From an uncultured Clostridia bacterium (lineage in GTDB: Bacteria > Bacillota > Clostridia > Oscillospirales > QAKW01), in contig CALWYZ010000003.1 of NCBI GenBank assembly GCA_944385895.1, forward strand, positions 1 through 64,000: a stretch of 64,000 nucleotides of DNA, read 5' to 3'. The notes under the pieces were generated by a model. That model saw only the letters and a list, made by a program, of their open reading frames with translations, made no database searches and was not told where the DNA came from. Shown piece by piece: positions 175-38,547 of this stretch; position 1 is the stretch's first letter; every line of letters starts with the position of its first letter. Made by a program: the position numbers and the translations under genes.

Positions 175-1395
175 TCATTCCGTAGGGAAAACGGAAATAA
201 TCGCATTTGCCGAAGCAATCTTTGAAGAAAAATCAAGGTGGGTGTAGATATTCGAGGTTGTTGAAATATCACTGTGTCCCAACCATTCCTGAATCTCTTT
301 CAGGCTTACCCCATTTGCGTAAAGCAAGCTCGCACAACTATGGCGTAGGTCGTGAAATCGGATTTTCCGCAAGCCATTCTTTTTGAGAACCAACGGAAAG
401 TGCTGTGTGATGTAGCCCGGTTTGATAAGCTCTCCAATCTCATTGACATAGATATATTCCCTGAAATCGTTGCAGTAGCCTTTTCCGCACATTTTCCGAT
501 TCATCTCCTGTTGTGCTTTCAGGCGGTAAAGCAATTCCTCGAACGGCGGGATAAGCGGCAGCGAACGGTAGCTGGATTTCGTCTTGGTTCTGTCTTTCTG
601 AATGATCTGGCTTTTGCCGTCGAGGGTCACTTGGGTAACAGTATGACGAATCGTGATGGTTTTCTGCTTAAAGTCAATCGCATTCCATTTCAGCCCCACG
701 ACTTCGCTGCGACGCAGGCCATAGAAAGCGCCGAGAATAACGGCAAGCTCTATCGGGTCGCCTTTGACAACTTCAAATAGTTGTTCAAGTTCCTCTTGAT
801 TATAAATACTGCCGACGAATTTTTCTTTCTTCGGCCGTTCAATCCGATCGGACGGATTGCTGTTAATCAAGCCGATTTTTACGGCGTATTTCAGTGCCTT
901 GTGAATATTGGCGTGGCGGTGAATGACCGTGTTTGCCGATACCTTTCTTTCTTTCATTTCGTAGGTGTAATAGTCCTGTATATGCTTCGGCGTCAAATCA
1001 CATAAAGCAAGCCCCGGAAAGAACTCGTCAAAGTATACGACAATTTTGCTTTTGATACAGAACGAATAAGAAGCGTAGGTCGGTTTATCCAAATTGGGCT
1101 TCATCATCTCCAGCCAGTCGAGCATAAAGGTTGTAAACGGTATTTTTGCTTCGTCTTGTGGATTCGGATTTTGCGGTGTATCGTTCTCCTTTGCTTCTTT
1201 TTCTTCTTGCAGCTTTTTCAGTTCAAGTTCTTTGCTTTGGCGGGCTTCCATAAGCATTGCCTCTGCACGCTTTTTATTGCCCTTAACTGGCAGCCCGGTC
1301 GTTTTTGACGGGGTTTGCCTTTTGCCGTTTTCGTCCGTATAGCTCAATACAATGTGAAAGTAGCCTCTTTTTTCACGCAGATGTCCTGCAACCAT
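175..1395 (-). CDS. int: tyrosine integrase of the ICE (Tn916 Int-like)
   Basis: This 406-residue tyrosine recombinase should excise and integrate the element at the 3' end of tRNA-Leu. Residues 1-50 resemble the Tn916-type arm-binding domain, residues 85-175 the SAM-like core-binding domain, and 195-400 the catalytic domain. The catalytic set is complete: R228 in YGLRRSE, a lysine near K272, H348 and R351 in FHDLRHS, H374 in WLGHS and nucleophile Y384 in NIYTH. The ATG follows AAAGGAGGT. The gene sits next to attL and reads toward it, with the excisionase-like gene upstream, the standard Tn916/Tn1549 arrangement. Confidence 0.96.
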   Translation of the reverse strand: MVAGHLREKRGYFHIVLSYTDENGKRQTPSKTTGLPVKGNKKRAEAMLMEARQSKELELKKLQEEKEAKENDTPQNPNPQDEAKIPFTTFMLDWLEMMKPNLDKPTYASYSFCIKSKIVVYFDEFFPGLALCDLTPKHIQDYYTYEMKERKVSANTVIHRHANIHKALKYAVKIGLINSNPSDRIERPKKEKFVGSIYNQEELEQLFEVVKGDPIELAVILGAFYGLRRSEVVGLKWNAIDFKQKTITIRHTVTQVTLDGKSQIIQKDRTKTKSSYRSLPLIPPFEELLYRLKAQQEMNRKMCGKGYCNDFREYIYVNEIGELIKPGYITQHFPLVLKKNGLRKIRFHDLRHSCASLLYANGVSLKEIQEWLGHSDISTTSNIYTHLDFSSKIASANAIISVFPTE

Positions 1396-1494
1396 AAAAT
1401 GACCTCCTTTGTTTGGTGCAGCATAGATTCATCTGCCATTGACAGAATCATTATAGCAGATAGAACCCTATCGGCCAAATGTGCAAACGAGGTT

Positions 1495-1721: not shown

Positions 1722-2246
1722 CTATCTGGCCTTTGGAATGACCTCATAATCAAAGCCCTTTCTGCTGTTGCAATAAGTGCAGGTATCTTTTTCGGTTTGT
1801 GCCGGGTCGACCCGCCGCAAAGCAAAAGCACCTGAACCATAAAAATTGTTGGCACAGGTGCTGCAAAGGCAAAGGATTAACTTTTTCGGTACGCTGTCGA
1901 TCAGACCGATACTGACAGCCAGAGCGTGGTTGATACCCTGTATATGCTTTTCGGGCAGATGGCCGATAAACTCATTCAACCGACGTTTATCAACGGTGCG
2001 TAGCTGCTCCAAAAGAACGATAGAGGGGAGTTCCAGACCGGCTTCTATACCGATATAATAGTGAGTAGGTAATTTCGGCTTGGCGTCCTTTTTGCTTGTG
2101 ATAGAAGCGATTATTACCGTAGGGCTGTGTTTGTTGCCTACATCGTTTTGAATAATAACAACGGGGCGATAGCCCTCCTGCTCCGAGCCGATACCGTGGC
2201 CTAAATCAGCATAATACATATCGCCCCTTAAATATGTGCGGTTCAT
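1722..2246 (-). CDS. MazF/PemK-like toxin-family protein with C-terminal zinc ribbon
   Basis: Residues 1-120 look like the MazF/PemK fold: an early RGDMYYADLG strand, RPVVIIQND, and a conserved LPSIVLLEQLRTVDK segment. MazF proteins are mRNA endoribonucleases. Unlike classical 110-residue MazF, this 174-residue protein carries a C-terminal extension with CLCSTC and, about 30 residues on, CTYC, a probable zinc ribbon. No antitoxin gene is adjacent: the neighbours are the excisionase-like gene 8 bp downstream and an apparently non-coding region upstream. RNase activity, a regulatory role, or a degenerate toxin are all possible. ATG with GGGAGG ten bases upstream. Confidence 0.8.
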   Translation of the reverse strand: MNRTYLRGDMYYADLGHGIGSEQEGYRPVVIIQNDVGNKHSPTVIIASITSKKDAKPKLPTHYYIGIEAGLELPSIVLLEQLRTVDKRRLNEFIGHLPEKHIQGINHALAVSIGLIDSVPKKLILCLCSTCANNFYGSGAFALRRVDPAQTEKDTCTYCNSRKGFDYEVIPKAR

Positions 2247-2868
2247 AATATTAAGACCTCCCTTGAATTTTTAGGCGGTATGCCGCCTATGTAGAGGTCA
2301 AACGGAGAACAGAATTAAGGTCGGGGAAATGCAAACATATCCACGTTTCAAAGACCCGTCCAACCGTTTGACCTTGTATTTTCAGACAATCCTATTTGTC
2401 CTCGACACCCCGGATTGTTCTTTGTTTCGGGAAGTCATCAAGCGGCTGGCGGCTTACCAGCTCCACGGGAATCTCACCCCCGGTAGGTTCTCTACCGGCT
2501 GCCCTCATTGGTTGCGACGGTTTTATCACGCTCGACCTGTGACTAAACAGGAGTATCGTTAGCCCTATTGCCTGTCGTCGCCGTATCGGGAGCCGCCCGA
2601 TATTGATAGCCGGCTGGTTCTCGCTCCTTGTCGGAAAACAAAAAGCCAAAGACCAAATCATAAAGTGTAATCTCGTTGCTTTTGATTTCCGCAGATCGTG
2701 GCGCAGCCGCTAATGTGGCTTATGCTCATCACAATAGCAATAGGAATGTGCTTGATGAATGGGTATTTAGTTGTCAAAGGACAAGCCCATTCACCGCACA
2801 AAGCAGAAAACAGGCAGAGACTTTTACCTCTCCACCTGTTTCCTCACTCAAAGTCTAAAACACAGGGT
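2247..2868. other. 622-bp stretch with no convincing gene
   Basis: The segment between the MazF-like and sigma-like genes has no ORF with a believable start and ribosome site. On the minus strand a frame from about 2710 to 2550 reads EITLYDLVFGFLFSDKE and looks protein-like, but it has no ATG, GTG or TTG start where one is needed; it may be a gene remnant. A small hairpin (TAGGCGG at 2272-2278, CCGCCTA at 2283-2289) precedes the MazF-like ribosome site. Confidence 0.5.
2806..2844 (-). terminator. hairpin downstream of sigma-like gene
   Basis: AAACAGG (2808-2814) pairs with CCTGTTT (2835-2841) and AGAG (2816-2819) with CTCT (2828-2831). Reading leftward, the stem is followed by TTCTGCTTT. It starts about 30 bases after the stop codon of the sigma-like gene, so a weak terminator is likely. 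Confidence 0.5.
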
Positions 2869-28686: not shown

Positions 28687-29376
28687 TCAACGGGCAACAT
28701 CTTTGTTTACTTCGGCTTTAGAGGGTGTGGGGCGGGTACAAACATTCGGGCTTTGAATACGGTATTCTTCGGGTATGTTCTCGATATTTCCGTCGTAGAC
28801 TTCAACAAAACTGCTGCTATCCATACGGATATACCCTGTGTCGGTAAATGCTCCGGTTTCACTCATATAAATATCTTCGCCAAATCCATAGTAGTCAATA
28901 TAATCGGCAAGAGGCCCCATACGGCTTGTATCATAACAGCCGCTTTTTTCGGCCCAATAATAGCCGAGATCATATTCGTCTGATATTCCCGGCAAAAAAT
29001 CGAAACAATCCAGATTTTCGGTTAGATTGATTAAGTCTTTTACACTGTCAGCACATTCGCCCAAATCAAAAACCGCTTGCCAAAACTCCGTATTCTCATT
29101 TAGTGTTATCAGCTTTCCGGCAAGATAATTCAGCTCGCTCAAACTTTCATATTCTCCGCAAAGGTCATAAAGATTTGGAATATGAAACTCATAATCGCTG
29201 ATAAACCATTCCTCATAGCGGCGGCCAATGCCGATTCTCTTAAATACCTCCTGCATTTCGTCATTAGTAATGGGAAATTTGACCCATTCGCCGACGAGTT
29301 CACCCTCGTTGTATTTCCCTAAATTCGTAATGAACGCCTCAAAAGCACAATCCCTTGAATCAGATAAGTTATTCAT
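28687..29376 (-). CDS. ardA: antirestriction protein ArdA
   Basis: A 229-residue very acidic protein that matches ArdA, a DNA mimic that blocks type I restriction enzymes. Conserved pieces include GEWVKFPI near residue 30, EEWFISDYE near 55, LNYLAGKL near 80, GYYWAEKSG near 138 and the YIDYYGFGEDI segment near 160. It helps the element survive entry. It is followed upstream by two small ICE genes in the same direction. Confidence 0.92.
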   Translation of the reverse strand: MNNLSDSRDCAFEAFITNLGKYNEGELVGEWVKFPITNDEMQEVFKRIGIGRRYEEWFISDYEFHIPNLYDLCGEYESLSELNYLAGKLITLNENTEFWQAVFDLGECADSVKDLINLTENLDCFDFLPGISDEYDLGYYWAEKSGCYDTSRMGPLADYIDYYGFGEDIYMSETGAFTDTGYIRMDSSSFVEVYDGNIENIPEEYRIQSPNVCTRPTPSKAEVNKDVAR

Positions 29377-30330: not shown

Positions 30331-30420
30331 TTATTTTTTACGGCTTCTGATCTTCAGGAAAATCAAAGCGCCTATAATGAAAACGACCAAGCCGATAGCA
30401 ACGATTGTTTTCACGTCCAT
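30331..30420 (-). CDS. 29-residue single-pass membrane peptide coupled to the adhesin
   Basis: MDVKTIVAIGLVVFIIGALI begins this peptide, followed by FLKIRSRKK: one transmembrane helix and a basic tail. Its ATG overlaps the stop codon of the surface adhesin gene (TAATG), so it is translationally coupled to it. It is followed at once by a terminator. The function is unknown; a helper in adhesin export or anchoring is possible. Confidence 0.65.
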   Translation of the reverse strand: MDVKTIVAIGLVVFIIGALIFLKIRSRKK

Positions 30421-33400
30421 TATTCAGTGTCCTCCTTTTTAGATTTCTTCTTCAAACCGATCACACTGAGAACCGCAGCGCCGGCCGCAGAAACGCCGAG
30501 CAGGGAGAGCCAAAGGGCAGGATTCCTGTCGTCGCCTGTTTTCGGGGTGTCTCGGAGTTCGTTGTGCATTTCCACTGTGGTAACAGCACCCTCAAATACG
30601 CTGGCTGTCTTATCCGCAGGGAGTACATAGGCGGCAGAAGCCCCGTCCGAAACTTCGGATACGGTGTAATCGCCAATGCGGAGATTTTCGATGAAGATTT
30701 CCCCGTTTTCATCGGTAACAAAGACCTCGGAATAACCATTTGAGCCGGTCACTTGGAACGAGAATCCCTCCACCTTGCCGTCCGAGGAAGTCTTGACGAT
30801 TTTCAGAGAGCCGACCTGCGGGGTGTTGACAAATCCCTTGCCCGCTTCATTTTCGACGGTGACGGTCTTGCCGTGTTCAGTGATCTCAAAATAATAGGCG
30901 TTCTCGTCCAGATAGAAGCCCTCCGGCGCTTGCTGTTCTTTTACAAAATAGCCGCCGTAGGTGAGATCGTGCATTTCATAAACGCCTGTGCTGACTTCGG
31001 AGAGTTCGCCGATTTTTTCGTCGTTCCCGTCAAAAGCCTTATCGCCGTTACTGTCACTGTAGACGGTAAACTTTGCGCCCGTCAGTTTGTTATCGGGATA
31101 GTCCCTGTCGGTTTTCGTGAGCTGCACGTTTCCTCGAATCAGCGTGTTTTCGATTTCCACCTCAATGATGGTGCCGTCCTTATCAATGGTGACGGCAAAG
31201 GATTTTTCCGAAAGCACAAAGCCGGCCGGGGCTTCAATTTCATGCACGACCCAGTTCCCGAAAGGCACATTTGCAAACGAAAAGCTGCCGTCCTCGGCAG
31301 AGATGGCGGACATAATCGCATTTTCGGTAATGAACTCGGTGCAATCCGGTTTGAAAAGGCCGATGACAGCGCCGCCGAGGGCGTTTCCGTTCTCGTCTTT
31401 TTTCAGACCGTGAATTTCACCGTAGATCAGGTTGTTGCCGATTGCTTCGCCGTCATTGGCCTTGATCTCCACAAGGGCGGTGTCCTGTCCCATATAAGAG
31501 AACTCAAACGGGTACTTTTTGTCGGAGAGGATATAGTGCTCGTCGGTAGAAAGCTCCTTGAAATAAAAACTGCCAAACGGCAGGTCGGTCTTGCAAACGG
31601 CGTGGCCGCCTTCATCTACGGAGAGAATTTCAAGCAGCCCGTCCGCAGGAATCACCGAGCCGTCTGCTGCGGTTAAATCTTCGACGGCAAACAAACCAAA
31701 AGTAACGGCAGTAATCTCACCGTTTGCGCCGATACCGAACTGCTCATTTTGCTCTAAAATCTTGTCGAGGGTAGCGGCTGCTTTCTGTCGCTCATTATAG
31801 AAGCTGGCGGTTGTTTCGGTAATCTCGATTTCCTGTCCCGCATAGGTGAGTTCTGCGGTGTGAACTTCTCCATTCAGAACCATTCCATAGGGGGCAGTAA
31901 TTTCACGGATTTCATATTTTCCAAGATAAAGCGGTTCGCTCTCGGCAAGCCCTGTGTCGTCTGTGGTTACAGTGTCAACCACTTCGCCGGCAGTATAGCG
32001 CAGCGTACCGTCCGGCGTGACAATATCCTCGGCGGCTGTGATTTCATAAACTGCGCCCGCAAGCCCCTGTACGGAATAGACGGGTTGATATACGCCCTCG
32101 CTTTCCGTAACAGAAGAAAACACCTCGCCGGTCTTGCTGATCTTGATAATGCCTTTCTGTGCAACGTTTTCCTTGATAACCTCAATCACGGCAATACCGC
32201 CCTCGTCGGTAGAAGCGTCCTGAACCACATCAAAATACACCGGCTCGCTGTTCACAACGTACCCGTAGGGAGCATAGACCTCGACCAGCGAATACCCCGT
32301 GCCGTATTCCAGCTTTTCGGGAGTGATTAACCAGCCCTCGTCATTGGTATAAAAGGTGTCGATGGTAACAGGTTCCGGATAGGTGAAACTCTGCGTAATC
32401 AATGTTCCGTCCGGGCGGTAAAGCTGAAAGCCTGCTCCTGCATAGGGAATAATTTTGCCGGTTTCGGCGTCCACTTTAATGATCTTGATATACGATTCAA
32501 AATTAGCATTATTGGCAAGGTAGTGGTAAACCTCACCGTTCTTGGCGATATACACATCAAAATCGGGCAGAAGTTCACGACCGTCCCAACCTTTTACTTG
32601 ATGGACGGTATAAATACCATATGGCAAATCCTTTGTTTCAGCAAAGCCGTTTTCATCGCAGATGAGATAATCACGCTCGGTATCTTTGGCGGCGTCGTAG
32701 CTGCTCGCCGCTTTCAAAAATACCTCAAATTCGGCTCCGGCCTCCGGCGTTTCAAGGCCGGTGTCGCCGTCATCGGTGTGCTTAATCAGGGCAATTCTGC
32801 CTTTGATGATTTGTTCGCCTACATCGCTTGCGATGGCGTTGTATTCCACGGTGTAGTTTTTGGCTTCGGCGCCGATGTGGTAGACGGATTCATCAAGTAG
32901 ATAGCCCTCGCTTGGCTCAATTTCACGCAGCGACCAGTCATCGCCGCAGACATAATATTTCGTCACGAACTGTCCGTTCTCATTAGTGGTGTAGGTGTCG
33001 ATAAGCTGTTCGCCTTTATAAATCCCGTAGGTGGCTCCTGCAAGAGAAGCGTCGCCCTGCGGCGTGCCGGTTTCATTGTCGCTTTTGGTGACGGTGAGAT
33101 TCCATTTTTTCAAAACATTGTGAAAGCTCTTATTGGTAACGGTGTTCCACTCGACCGCCGCTGTCTGATTTTCAGGAACGACGTAGCGGATAGCGGTATC
33201 AACTTCTTCCAGAACATAGCCCGTACCGATCAGCACATCGTCAAAACGGGCAACGCCTGAACTGTCGGTCACGGCGTATTCATCGACTGCAAGACCCGAA
33301 AGAGAAGTGCCGGACAAGCGGAACGTAACGCCCTCATTCAAGCCGTCCTCCGAGGTTTTGGTAACGGTGAGGTCGCCCCGTTTCAGCACGTTATTGAAAT

Positions 33401-34646
33401 TCACCGTTGCGACCTGTCCGCTGACGACGGTAACACGGCGAACCTCCTGCGGCTCGTATTTGTCGTAGCTTTGTTCGGTGACGGTATAAACGCCGGGGGT
33501 GAGGTTGCCGATTTGGATTTCACCGTTGGGGCCGGTCTGCACAGTCTGATTCACGCCATTTCCCGTAACCGTAAAGGTGATCCCCTCAACCTTGCCGTCC
33601 TCGCTGGTTTTCACAATTTTAGCGCTGCCGTAGCTTACCTTGATATTTAGATAGCCTTTTACGGGGTCGTTCACCGTCTGCGCGTAAGTCACGGTGTCCT
33701 GAATCCCACCGTCAGGGCCGTAAACGCCGTCCGTCCAAGTGATGATTCCTCGTCTTTGAGCAGTTTTCTCGGCGGTGATGGTAACGGTATCACTCGGCGC
33801 TTTCTCGGCAGTAATCGTCAGCTTATTGCCATTAACGGAAAAATGGATTCCCGAATCGCTTGCTGAAAATGAATAGTCGGAAAGGACATTGTTCTGATCG
33901 GTCAGCGTGGCGGTGTATTTCTCGCCGTCCCATTCCAGTTCGATATTCTGCGCTTTCCCTGTGGATTTTGCAAAAAAGCTCGGCAGTTTGGAATGGTTCT
34001 GTACGCTCGCTGCCATTGAATCGTAGTAACGCATAATCTTGTCATAAAGGGGGTGGTCCGGGCTGATCTGGTCGAGGATAGCGTCTTTGCCGCCTGTACT
34101 GACTTTATTAAAATCTTCGTCACGTTCTCCCACGACGGTTTCCCAAATCAAAAGCTGCGTGGCGACTGCGTGGGCCAGTTTATCGCCGCCCTCGTTCTGC
34201 GAACGCCAAGAGGACGAAATTGTACCCGTATAGCCATACTGAAAAATTCTGCCGATAAACAGCTTTATATCATCGGGAGAAATGGTGCTGTTATAGGACG
34301 AGGGGTAATTATCCCAAAAATCTTCGCCCTTTTGCGTATAGCTGTCGCCGGTTTCCTGCGGAACGCCGACCTCAATGCAGTAACAGATATTGCCGTTGTA
34401 CGCACCCATTGCGCGGACAGTCGTAAAACGAGAACTGCCGGACGACCAGCCATTCATAAAGGTGTGGCTTTCGTGCCCCCATTCTGCGCCGTAATTTTCG
34501 TCGCCGTCACGAGGGAATGAAACAAGGTAAACCTCGTCGGTTTCTTCGGCGGCATAGGCGGTCGTGCCGAACCCAACGAGGGTAGTAACACACATCAGCG
34601 CCGAAAGAAACAGCGACAGAAAGCGTTTGGCTTTTTGCATTTTCAT
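30420..34646 (-). CDS. thioester/Cna-B surface adhesin with sortase signal
   Basis: A 1408-residue wall protein. Residues 1-32 are a signal peptide (ending AYA). A thioester domain follows, with C90 in YCIE and Q164 in ATQLLIWE, the pair that forms an internal thioester able to bind host or cell surfaces covalently. Residues from about 340 to 1360 are a chain of some ten SpaA/Cna-B-type beta domains, many with the repeated Y-x-V-x-E ends typical of isopeptide-stabilised folds. The C terminus has TPKTGD, a hydrophobic helix and KKKSKK tail. The element's own class B sortase is the likely anchor enzyme. ATG follows AAGGAGG. Confidence 0.92.
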   Translation of the reverse strand: MKMQKAKRFLSLFLSALMCVTTLVGFGTTAYAAEETDEVYLVSFPRDGDENYGAEWGHESHTFMNGWSSGSSRFTTVRAMGAYNGNICYCIEVGVPQETGDSYTQKGEDFWDNYPSSYNSTISPDDIKLFIGRIFQYGYTGTISSSWRSQNEGGDKLAHAVATQLLIWETVVGERDEDFNKVSTGGKDAILDQISPDHPLYDKIMRYYDSMAASVQNHSKLPSFFAKSTGKAQNIELEWDGEKYTATLTDQNNVLSDYSFSASDSGIHFSVNGNKLTITAEKAPSDTVTITAEKTAQRRGIITWTDGVYGPDGGIQDTVTYAQTVNDPVKGYLNIKVSYGSAKIVKTSEDGKVEGITFTVTGNGVNQTVQTGPNGEIQIGNLTPGVYTVTEQSYDKYEPQEVRRVTVVSGQVATVNFNNVLKRGDLTVTKTSEDGLNEGVTFRLSGTSLSGLAVDEYAVTDSSGVARFDDVLIGTGYVLEEVDTAIRYVVPENQTAAVEWNTVTNKSFHNVLKKWNLTVTKSDNETGTPQGDASLAGATYGIYKGEQLIDTYTTNENGQFVTKYYVCGDDWSLREIEPSEGYLLDESVYHIGAEAKNYTVEYNAIASDVGEQIIKGRIALIKHTDDGDTGLETPEAGAEFEVFLKAASSYDAAKDTERDYLICDENGFAETKDLPYGIYTVHQVKGWDGRELLPDFDVYIAKNGEVYHYLANNANFESYIKIIKVDAETGKIIPYAGAGFQLYRPDGTLITQSFTYPEPVTIDTFYTNDEGWLITPEKLEYGTGYSLVEVYAPYGYVVNSEPVYFDVVQDASTDEGGIAVIEVIKENVAQKGIIKISKTGEVFSSVTESEGVYQPVYSVQGLAGAVYEITAAEDIVTPDGTLRYTAGEVVDTVTTDDTGLAESEPLYLGKYEIREITAPYGMVLNGEVHTAELTYAGQEIEITETTASFYNERQKAAATLDKILEQNEQFGIGANGEITAVTFGLFAVEDLTAADGSVIPADGLLEILSVDEGGHAVCKTDLPFGSFYFKELSTDEHYILSDKKYPFEFSYMGQDTALVEIKANDGEAIGNNLIYGEIHGLKKDENGNALGGAVIGLFKPDCTEFITENAIMSAISAEDGSFSFANVPFGNWVVHEIEAPAGFVLSEKSFAVTIDKDGTIIEVEIENTLIRGNVQLTKTDRDYPDNKLTGAKFTVYSDSNGDKAFDGNDEKIGELSEVSTGVYEMHDLTYGGYFVKEQQAPEGFYLDENAYYFEITEHGKTVTVENEAGKGFVNTPQVGSLKIVKTSSDGKVEGFSFQVTGSNGYSEVFVTDENGEIFIENLRIGDYTVSEVSDGASAAYVLPADKTASVFEGAVTTVEMHNELRDTPKTGDDRNPALWLSLLGVSAAGAAVLSVIGLKKKSKKEDTE

Positions 34647-37793: not shown

Positions 37794-38036
37794 TCAAACC
37801 TGCACTTTCAATTCATTTTTGTATTCAGCATAGTGGGCGCTCAATACATAATCAATCACATATGGTTTAGGAATAAGGTATGTATGCCTTATGTAATAGT
37901 GTTTAACATGGTTGCCCCTCATTAGTTTTCGGGCTGTTCCATCGCCGATACCGCCGAGCATTTCTCGAAATTCCTGCAAGGTAACAACATCGGGATAGCT
38001 GGCAAACAGATTTTCATAGTATTCACGTTTTTTCAT
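37794..38036 (-). CDS. second excisionase-like winged-helix protein at the right ICE end
   Basis: An 80-residue DNA-binding protein. SYPDVVTLQEFREMLGGIG carries the helix-turn-helix, and LIPKPYVIDYV closes the wing, closely matching the pattern of the excisionase-like protein at 1495-1713. The start at 38036 has GGAGG seven bases upstream. It lies 330 bp from attR with its own terminator. It may be a second directionality factor, or a regulator of the par/transfer genes downstream of it. Confidence 0.8.
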   Translation of the reverse strand: MKKREYYENLFASYPDVVTLQEFREMLGGIGDGTARKLMRGNHVKHYYIRHTYLIPKPYVIDYVLSAHYAEYKNELKVQV

Positions 38037-38059
38037 AGCGATACCTCCAAATGATTTTG

Positions 38060-38088
38060 TTGTCAATGGCAGAGAAGTATGCTATAAT
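38060..38088 (+). promoter_or_regulatory. outward-facing promoter near attR
   Basis: Plus strand -35 TTGTCA (38060-38065), 17 bp, -10 TATAAT (38083-38088). No coding gene follows before a terminator at 38248-38278. Confidence 0.6.
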
Positions 38089-38094
38089 TTTGAC

Positions 38095-38278
38095 AGTTTA
38101 ATTGATTGGTACGGGTAGTGGATTCAATATCTAATACGCCTGCCGATTAGCCAAATGTCCCTCGGAGTGACCTCCGATGTTCAAATTTGCTCTCAAAACG
38201 AGCAGTTCCAGAAAAGCTCGACAGAACAAGGTTTTTCACATTAAGTTGCCCGAAATCCTTGATTTTTGGGCTTTTTTT
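38095..38278 (+). ncRNA. candidate small RNA between the right-end gene and attR
   Basis: A stretch of about 185 bases with a promoter, no plausible ORF and a terminator. It contains hairpins TCGGAG/CTCCGA (38162-38167, 38172-38177) and TGCTC/GAGCA (38188-38192, 38200-38204). The 3' end is GCCC (38248-38251) to GGGC (38268-38271) with AAATC/GATTT pairing inside, followed by TTTTTTT. A structured RNA of unknown role is suggested; transcription has not been shown. Confidence 0.45.
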
Positions 38279-38365
38279 GAGGGAGATAGGTTCCGATAAA
38301 GTCCGCCAAATGGATTCGGTTTCAGAGTAAATGGTAAAACTCAAAATCCGTTGATGGCGACATCG

Positions 38366-38397
38366 TGTGGGTTCGAGTCCCACCACCGGCACCAGAA
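38366..38397. repeat. attR: right direct repeat of the ICE
   Basis: Identical to 1-32. To its left, inside the ICE, the tRNA-like sequence continues through a variable arm (GATG GCGA CATC near 38353-38364) to an anticodon loop CTCAAAA near 38340, but the 5' anticodon stem does not pair, so the tRNA half is carried by the element or left from recombination. Confidence 0.9.
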
Positions 38398-38402
38398 TAG
38401 AT

Positions 38403-38440
38403 AAACCTGTTTCAAAGATAAAATGAAACAGGTTTTTATT
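38403..38440 (+). terminator. native tRNA-Leu terminator, displaced by the ICE
   Basis: AAACCTGTTTCA (38403-38414) and TGAAACAGGTTT (38424-38435), perfect 12-bp stem, then TTATTTTT. It lies five bases after attR, where the terminator of an uninterrupted tRNA-Leu gene would be. From here to 38547 no further feature was seen. Confidence 0.8.
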
Positions 38441-38547
38441 TTTAAGTTTTACTGCCATACTGATAAGATAGCATATTTCTTATTCCTTTTTACAGGCAAG
38501 GATATGGATCCGATTTTTGCTCCGGGCTTTTTTGTTTCTTTGTAGAG

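Follow-up and report, generated by a model that had tools for sequence, protein, structure and literature searches.

The stretch of DNA analyzed here (the window, 64 kb) holds an ICE of ~38.4 kb, which carries among its features the following.

175-1395, minus strand: tyrosine integrase (int), at the left end of the ICE (PF00589, E 2.5e-26)
1522-1713 (matched stretch), minus strand: left-end excisionase-like protein, upstream of int (HTH_17 and TIGR01764)
28687-29376, minus strand: gene for an ArdA antirestriction protein, inside the ICE
37794-38036, minus strand: right-end DNA-binding protein of 80 aa with a predicted excisionase-like fold (AlphaFold2 pLDDT 90.7)
38337-38393, plus strand: attR, consisting of the crossover core AAACTCAAAATCC (38337-38349) and the 3' half of tRNA-Leu up to 38393

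A 32-bp exact repeat of attR is found at the start of the window. Other ICE genes encode VirB4-type and VirD4-type transfer ATPases (CD1110 and CD1115 families) and a relaxase, and parA/parB are located close to the right end. The cargo includes a large adhesin (30420-34646, minus strand) with a thioester (TED) domain and ten SpaA-type domains. Directly upstream of the left-end excisionase-like gene lies a gene for a PemK/MazF-type toxin (1722-2246, minus strand), itself preceded by a match to the Rfam pemK RNA (RF02913, 58.4 bits, 2463-2562, minus strand). A second contig of the same genome, C2, ends in a complete tRNA-Leu(CAA)-like gene (L002 1470-1604) and overlaps the start of the window exactly over 77 bp (1-77); this contig is probably the left flank of the window. 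The tRNA 3' half differs between contig C2 and attR (CTCAAAATCTGTTATCC vs CTCAAAATCCGTTGATGG), a mismatch for which a simple single insertion does not account.

For the right-end protein we obtained a confident winged-helix model, whose best PDB matches were Xis of phage Pukovnik and the RdfS excisionase (Foldseek probability 0.97 for 4j2n and 0.91 for 8dgl, but E 0.27). HTH_17 was detected in 17/33 relatives (best E 1.2e-4), and a search of the window copy with HTH_17 gave no match, its sequence being too distant. The left-end excisionase-like protein is 38% identical to the right-end protein over the matched stretch (1522-1713). From the structural model, we infer that the right-end protein would act as an excisionase.

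Relatives were fetched with the right-end 80-aa protein (37794-38036, minus strand) as the query. This yielded 79 loci in species genomes, nearly all labelled Clostridia or Bacillota, together with two contigs from a viral collection and others from sampled genomes. Cultured hosts of ICEs of this family include Tissierella praeacuta DSM 18095 and Pelotomaculum strains. A motif resembling the crossover core was found at the expected distance in 69 of the 77 extracted right ends (the window's included), and 38 right ends were kept after removal of near-duplicates. The right-end DNA had no match in plasmid or phage collections; with the protein, there was none in plasmids and one weak match in the phage collection, while viral contigs gave none by single sequence and two by alignment. 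A 191-nt plus-strand segment, compared with 299 sampled genomes of the phylum, gave one weak 38-nt match that is not an ICE end. In one case (L010 and L025, G189:C16:239207-241763), two family elements apparently lie in tandem at a single tRNA-Leu, with the right end of one abutting the int end of the other.

Between the right-end gene and attR, signals are present on both strands.

38030-38087, minus strand: proposed hairpin of 15 pairs that would control translation, within the leader of the right-end excisionase-like gene
38060-38088, plus strand: outward sigma-70-like promoter (TTGTCA-17-TATAAT), in the opposite strand of the minus-strand hairpin
38061-38073: conserved loop, a proposed pairing seed, reading UCUGCCAUUGACA on the minus strand and TGTCAATGGCAGA on the plus strand, the latter including the -35 box
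38157-38178, no strand: tandem repeats TCCCTCGGA and GACCTCCGA, spaced 10-11 bp, proposed as integrase arm-type sites from the conservation profile
38248-38278, plus strand: terminator-like hairpin with seven Ts, in a sequence block conserved in the family

The first-pass annotation had proposed that a structured small RNA is transcribed outward from this end. Its individual elements were found where it had put them: the promoter (11/12 matches), no convincing ORF behind it (29, 40, and 47 codons only), a folded stretch (38095-38275, plus strand, -51.4 kcal/mol, z -2.9, with 2/200 shuffles equal), and a terminator-like stem (38248-38271) followed by seven Ts (38272-38278) ahead of attR. The promoter consists of TTGTCA (38060-38065), a 17-nt spacer, and TATAAT (38083-38088) with a TG ahead of the -10, and is the best and sole plus-strand site of that quality in the 64 kb, where 0.14 are expected per 4 kb. 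Among the relatives, an outward promoter with at least 10/12 matches is present in 19/38 right ends vs 1.1 +/- 1.3 in shuffles, an enrichment that the hairpin partly confounds; a recognizable minus-strand promoter was found in 0/38 right arms. Plus-strand terminator-like sites occur in 19/38 right arms vs 9.4 when shuffled (~2-fold) and in the left ends of 13/14 relatives. Since both the promoter and these sites are enriched in relatives, an outward transcript from the right end is plausible from the sequence comparison. The left-end plus-strand terminator after the tRNA (30-80) and the conserved block of the right end (38250-38280) have a common CTTGAT..GGC core.

What the first-pass annotation overlooked is that the 80-aa minus-strand gene starts from 38036, and that its Shine-Dalgarno sequence and the "promoter" fall within one inverted repeat. 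In the minus-strand leader, this repeat is predicted to fold (-14.8 kcal/mol, z -3.7 to -3.8) into a 5' arm, UUAUAGCAUACUUCU, a loop with the conserved CUGCCAUUGACAA, and a 3' arm, GGAGGUAUCGCUAUGA, which holds the Shine-Dalgarno sequence and the start codon, so that GGAGG and AUG are buried. The loop sequence CUGCCAUUGACAA is the complement of the promoter -35, is kept or replaced by a close variant in relatives, and belongs to a stretch that, behind the crossover core, ranks among the most conserved in the 38 right arms. With a plain alignment as input, RNAalifold gave no consensus pairs, and column counts separated the arms poorly from shuffles (57% of cells paired vs 54%, with a +1 slide scoring about equal), because bulges shift the register between relatives. 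We therefore adopted an alignment-free arm-swap test, in which both arms of each putative stem are exchanged between relatives. Across 36 non-redundant relatives, cognate arms paired at -15.1 kcal/mol vs -9.3 kcal/mol for swapped arms (0/20000 permutations), and the arm sequences vary widely while the pairing is kept. At least 9 arm-arm pairs are formed in 36/36 relatives (median 15), at least 4/6 Shine-Dalgarno bases are paired in 28/36, and a covariance model built from the window structure detects the hairpin in most relatives. These comparisons establish, at the level of sequence, a hairpin whose arms change with compensation.

The hairpin alone has no strand preference (p=0.31). In the region of the first plus-strand hairpin, the arm-swap test gave p=0.03 for the plus strand and p=0.0004 for the minus strand, and this region (38097-38147) is poorly conserved, being present in ~40% of the relatives and missing in ~60%. 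A second, weaker inverted repeat of the leader region is located at 38097-38150 (minus strand), better supported there than on the plus strand by these same arm-swap values. The first-pass annotation had named compensatory changes in related ends as the check on its plus-strand structure, and here it did not hold up: the terminator stem had no cognate advantage (p=0.37). The seven-T terminator was also considered as the 3' end of an RNA and rejected, as the stem is not conserved, although its primary sequence is. Mean folding z across relatives was -1.0 for the plus strand and -1.4 for the minus strand; together with the arm-swap results, this means that the family as a whole does not share the strong plus-strand fold seen in the window. 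Judged from these comparisons, the conserved RNA structure with compensation is on the minus strand, overlapping the promoter.

These results bear on whether the right end makes an outward structured small RNA of ~180 nt that acts in the excised circle. Its promoter and plus-strand terminator-like sites are enriched in relatives and the window fold has a z of -2.9, but the plus-strand hairpins lack compensating changes, the relatives lack a plus-strand folding advantage, and the first-hairpin region is absent in ~60% of them. No Rfam family reached its gathering score on 38060-38278 (in the window, only tRNA and pemK RNA did so, elsewhere), and lax thresholds on 37900-38450 gave just sub-threshold chance matches. 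Moreover, the -35 coincides with the invariant loop of the minus-strand hairpin, and in many members the bases that pair with the minus-strand start codon share positions with the -10; the promoter and hairpin signals are thus entangled. Of the earlier proposal, the enriched promoter stood (19/38 vs 1.1) and the RNA structure did not, and we regard such a small RNA as very improbable. The outward promoter itself is possibly real, as a separate feature on the other strand.

The conservation profile of the 38 right arms runs from TTGTCAATGGCAG through the variable stretch 38097-38147 to the tandem TCCCTCCAA, which is the family consensus of the tandem repeats, and on to CCTTGATTTTACGGGNTTTT, TTCCG repeats, and the core. 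Left ends of relatives also bear TCCCTCC repeats, similar to the tandem repeats of the right end. From their sequence, the conserved downstream blocks look like recombinase arm repeats or attachment-site DNA.

The loop of the minus-strand hairpin has a counterpart at the other end of the ICE, where its 13-mer recurs identically in the int leader (1432-1444).

1450-1455, minus strand: int promoter -10 box TATAAT, ending 6 nt before GTC
1443-1418, minus strand: GUCAAUGGCAGAUGAAUCUAUGCUGC, predicted as the 5' end of the int mRNA and complementary to the hairpin at the right end along its 5' arm and loop

The int -10 ends exactly 6 nt ahead of GTC in 21/26 leaders, so that the int mRNA, which we predict to start at GUCAAUGG, should carry the complementary stretch at its very 5' end. 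We compared 30 left/right pairs from the same genomes, which were paired by genome and not always shown to be one element. The int leader is complementary to the hairpin 5' arm and loop in 30/30 of these, with duplexes of -23.7 to -42.9 (the window's own: -31.4 kcal/mol). Among 19 non-redundant pairs, cognate duplexes scored -33.0 vs -23.9 for swapped ones (0/50000), and the variable second segment alone, which pairs poorly in some relatives (L083/L146 and L088/L151), still scored -9.65 for cognate vs -7.01 for swapped partners (0/50000). Left/right complementarity and its co-variation are thereby documented in the sequences. Left and right copies of the 12-nt seed differ by 13 transitions that preserve pairing as G-U and by 0 that abolish it; these 13 changes represent 7 distinct column changes and are not fully independent. 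RNA pairing would be expected to leave transitions solely toward G-U, which a shared DNA site would not. The int-leader duplex and the hairpin are mutually exclusive, and the duplex leaves the Shine-Dalgarno sequence free.

The motif shared by the two ends (GTCAATGGCAG as DNA) could instead be an operator or recombination site for the excisionase-like proteins or the integrase, with the hairpin being incidental. It is present at both ends and points outward at each, related HTH proteins are encoded at both ends, and the left and right copies change together between elements, a co-variation that one DNA-binding protein could explain. Such a protein site is difficult to reconcile with the compensated changes in the stem arms or with seed differences that solely keep G-U pairs (13 to 0). 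The spacing between the motif halves also differs by several bases between left and right in many elements, and the left copy sits at the predicted int +1, ~1.4 kb from the crossover core and hence too distant for an ordinary arm site. We therefore consider a DNA site unlikely and favor RNA pairing between the int leader and the right-end hairpin.

In the mechanism that we propose, the leader hairpin would cover the Shine-Dalgarno sequence and the start codon, and translation of the right-end gene would therefore be off by default. The first bases of the int transcript would be GUCAAUGGCAG, and a copy of the hairpin 5' arm in the opposite sense would come next. This int leader could pair with the loop and 5' arm (~-31 kcal/mol vs -15 kcal/mol for the hairpin) and displace the 3' arm, which would expose the ribosome-binding site. 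The pairing region ends ahead of the ribosome-binding site of int, so pairing should not block int itself. The int leader and the hairpin might pair in trans. In the excised circle they might also pair in cis, since minus-strand int transcription would there run over attP into the leader of the right-end gene. Of the right arms, 1/38 had a minus-strand terminator (5.4 when shuffled), as did 2/14 left ends; with so few of these terminators and with no minus-strand promoter in the right arms, read-through from int appears to be the likeliest source of the right-end mRNA. Transcription of the leader, read-through across attP, and activation of the gene are the steps that we infer. On balance, we think it probable, with some reserve, that int transcripts open the hairpin and so couple the two ends of the ICE by an RNA control pair, most likely after excision, when reading through attP.

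The outward promoter could enter this scheme from the opposite strand by giving rise to an antisense RNA against the int-to-right-gene read-through transcript across attP, which would damp it in the circle irrespective of RNA structure. This would fit a promoter that is confined to the plus strand (19/38 vs 0/38) and plus-strand terminators at both ends, which would halt the transcript before it had gone far into int. The promoter is not universal, however, and many hairpin-bearing members lack a good -10, and we hold antisense damping to be rather unlikely; it could also coexist with the hairpin switch. Returning to that switch, we tentatively suggest that the int mRNA 5' end may double as a riboregulator that, by pairing, turns on an excisionase-like gene at the element's far end whose translation is otherwise locked. 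Translation of this gene would then report an int transcript and, in cis, ends that have been joined by excision. This stronger claim strikes us as a real possibility that falls somewhat short of an even chance.

In the open-access papers that we searched, we found no report of an integrase mRNA leader that opens a hairpin on a gene at the opposite end of its element. Our data suggest that a widespread group of Clostridia ICEs may couple their two ends by RNA-RNA pairing. If so, an ICE would have a way, open to testing, of adjusting how much excisionase-like protein it makes to the transcription of its integrase and to its excised state.

Several known systems share parts of this arrangement. 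With the recombination directionality factors Pukovnik Xis and RdfS, the right-end protein shares a winged-helix fold, a length of ~80 aa, and a position beside the attachment site; unlike them, its gene is a second copy, besides the excisionase-like gene beside int. Shine-Dalgarno hairpins that are opened by RNA pairing are a known kind of control. One example is anti-antisense activation of rpoS by DsrA, in which pairing with the 5' arm of the leader hairpin frees the Shine-Dalgarno sequence. Here, too, a sequestered Shine-Dalgarno sequence would be freed when an RNA pairs with the 5' arm of the leader hairpin, but the proposed activator is the 5' end of the protein-coding int mRNA of the same element and not a dedicated sRNA. 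In phage lambda, sib, an RNase III site 3' of int, lowers int expression (retroregulation). Both cases would involve RNA control of recombination genes that depends on joining of the attachment sites, whereas the sequence described here lies at the 5' end of int and would increase expression of a gene on the far side of attP. In Tn916, the transfer genes are expressed only after circularization, from a promoter at the other end, and the canT antiterminator, a cis-acting RNA that is needed, acts on transcription termination in a system that includes terminator T1 (PMC11658703). As in Tn916, the element described here is a Gram-positive ICE in which genes at one end would be expressed once the element has excised, from transcripts that start at the other end and cross the junction. 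It differs in that the proposed control is translational, exerted by a hairpin that masks the ribosome-binding site and by an int mRNA whose 5' end is complementary to that hairpin, and in the element and its integration site, which here is tRNA-Leu.
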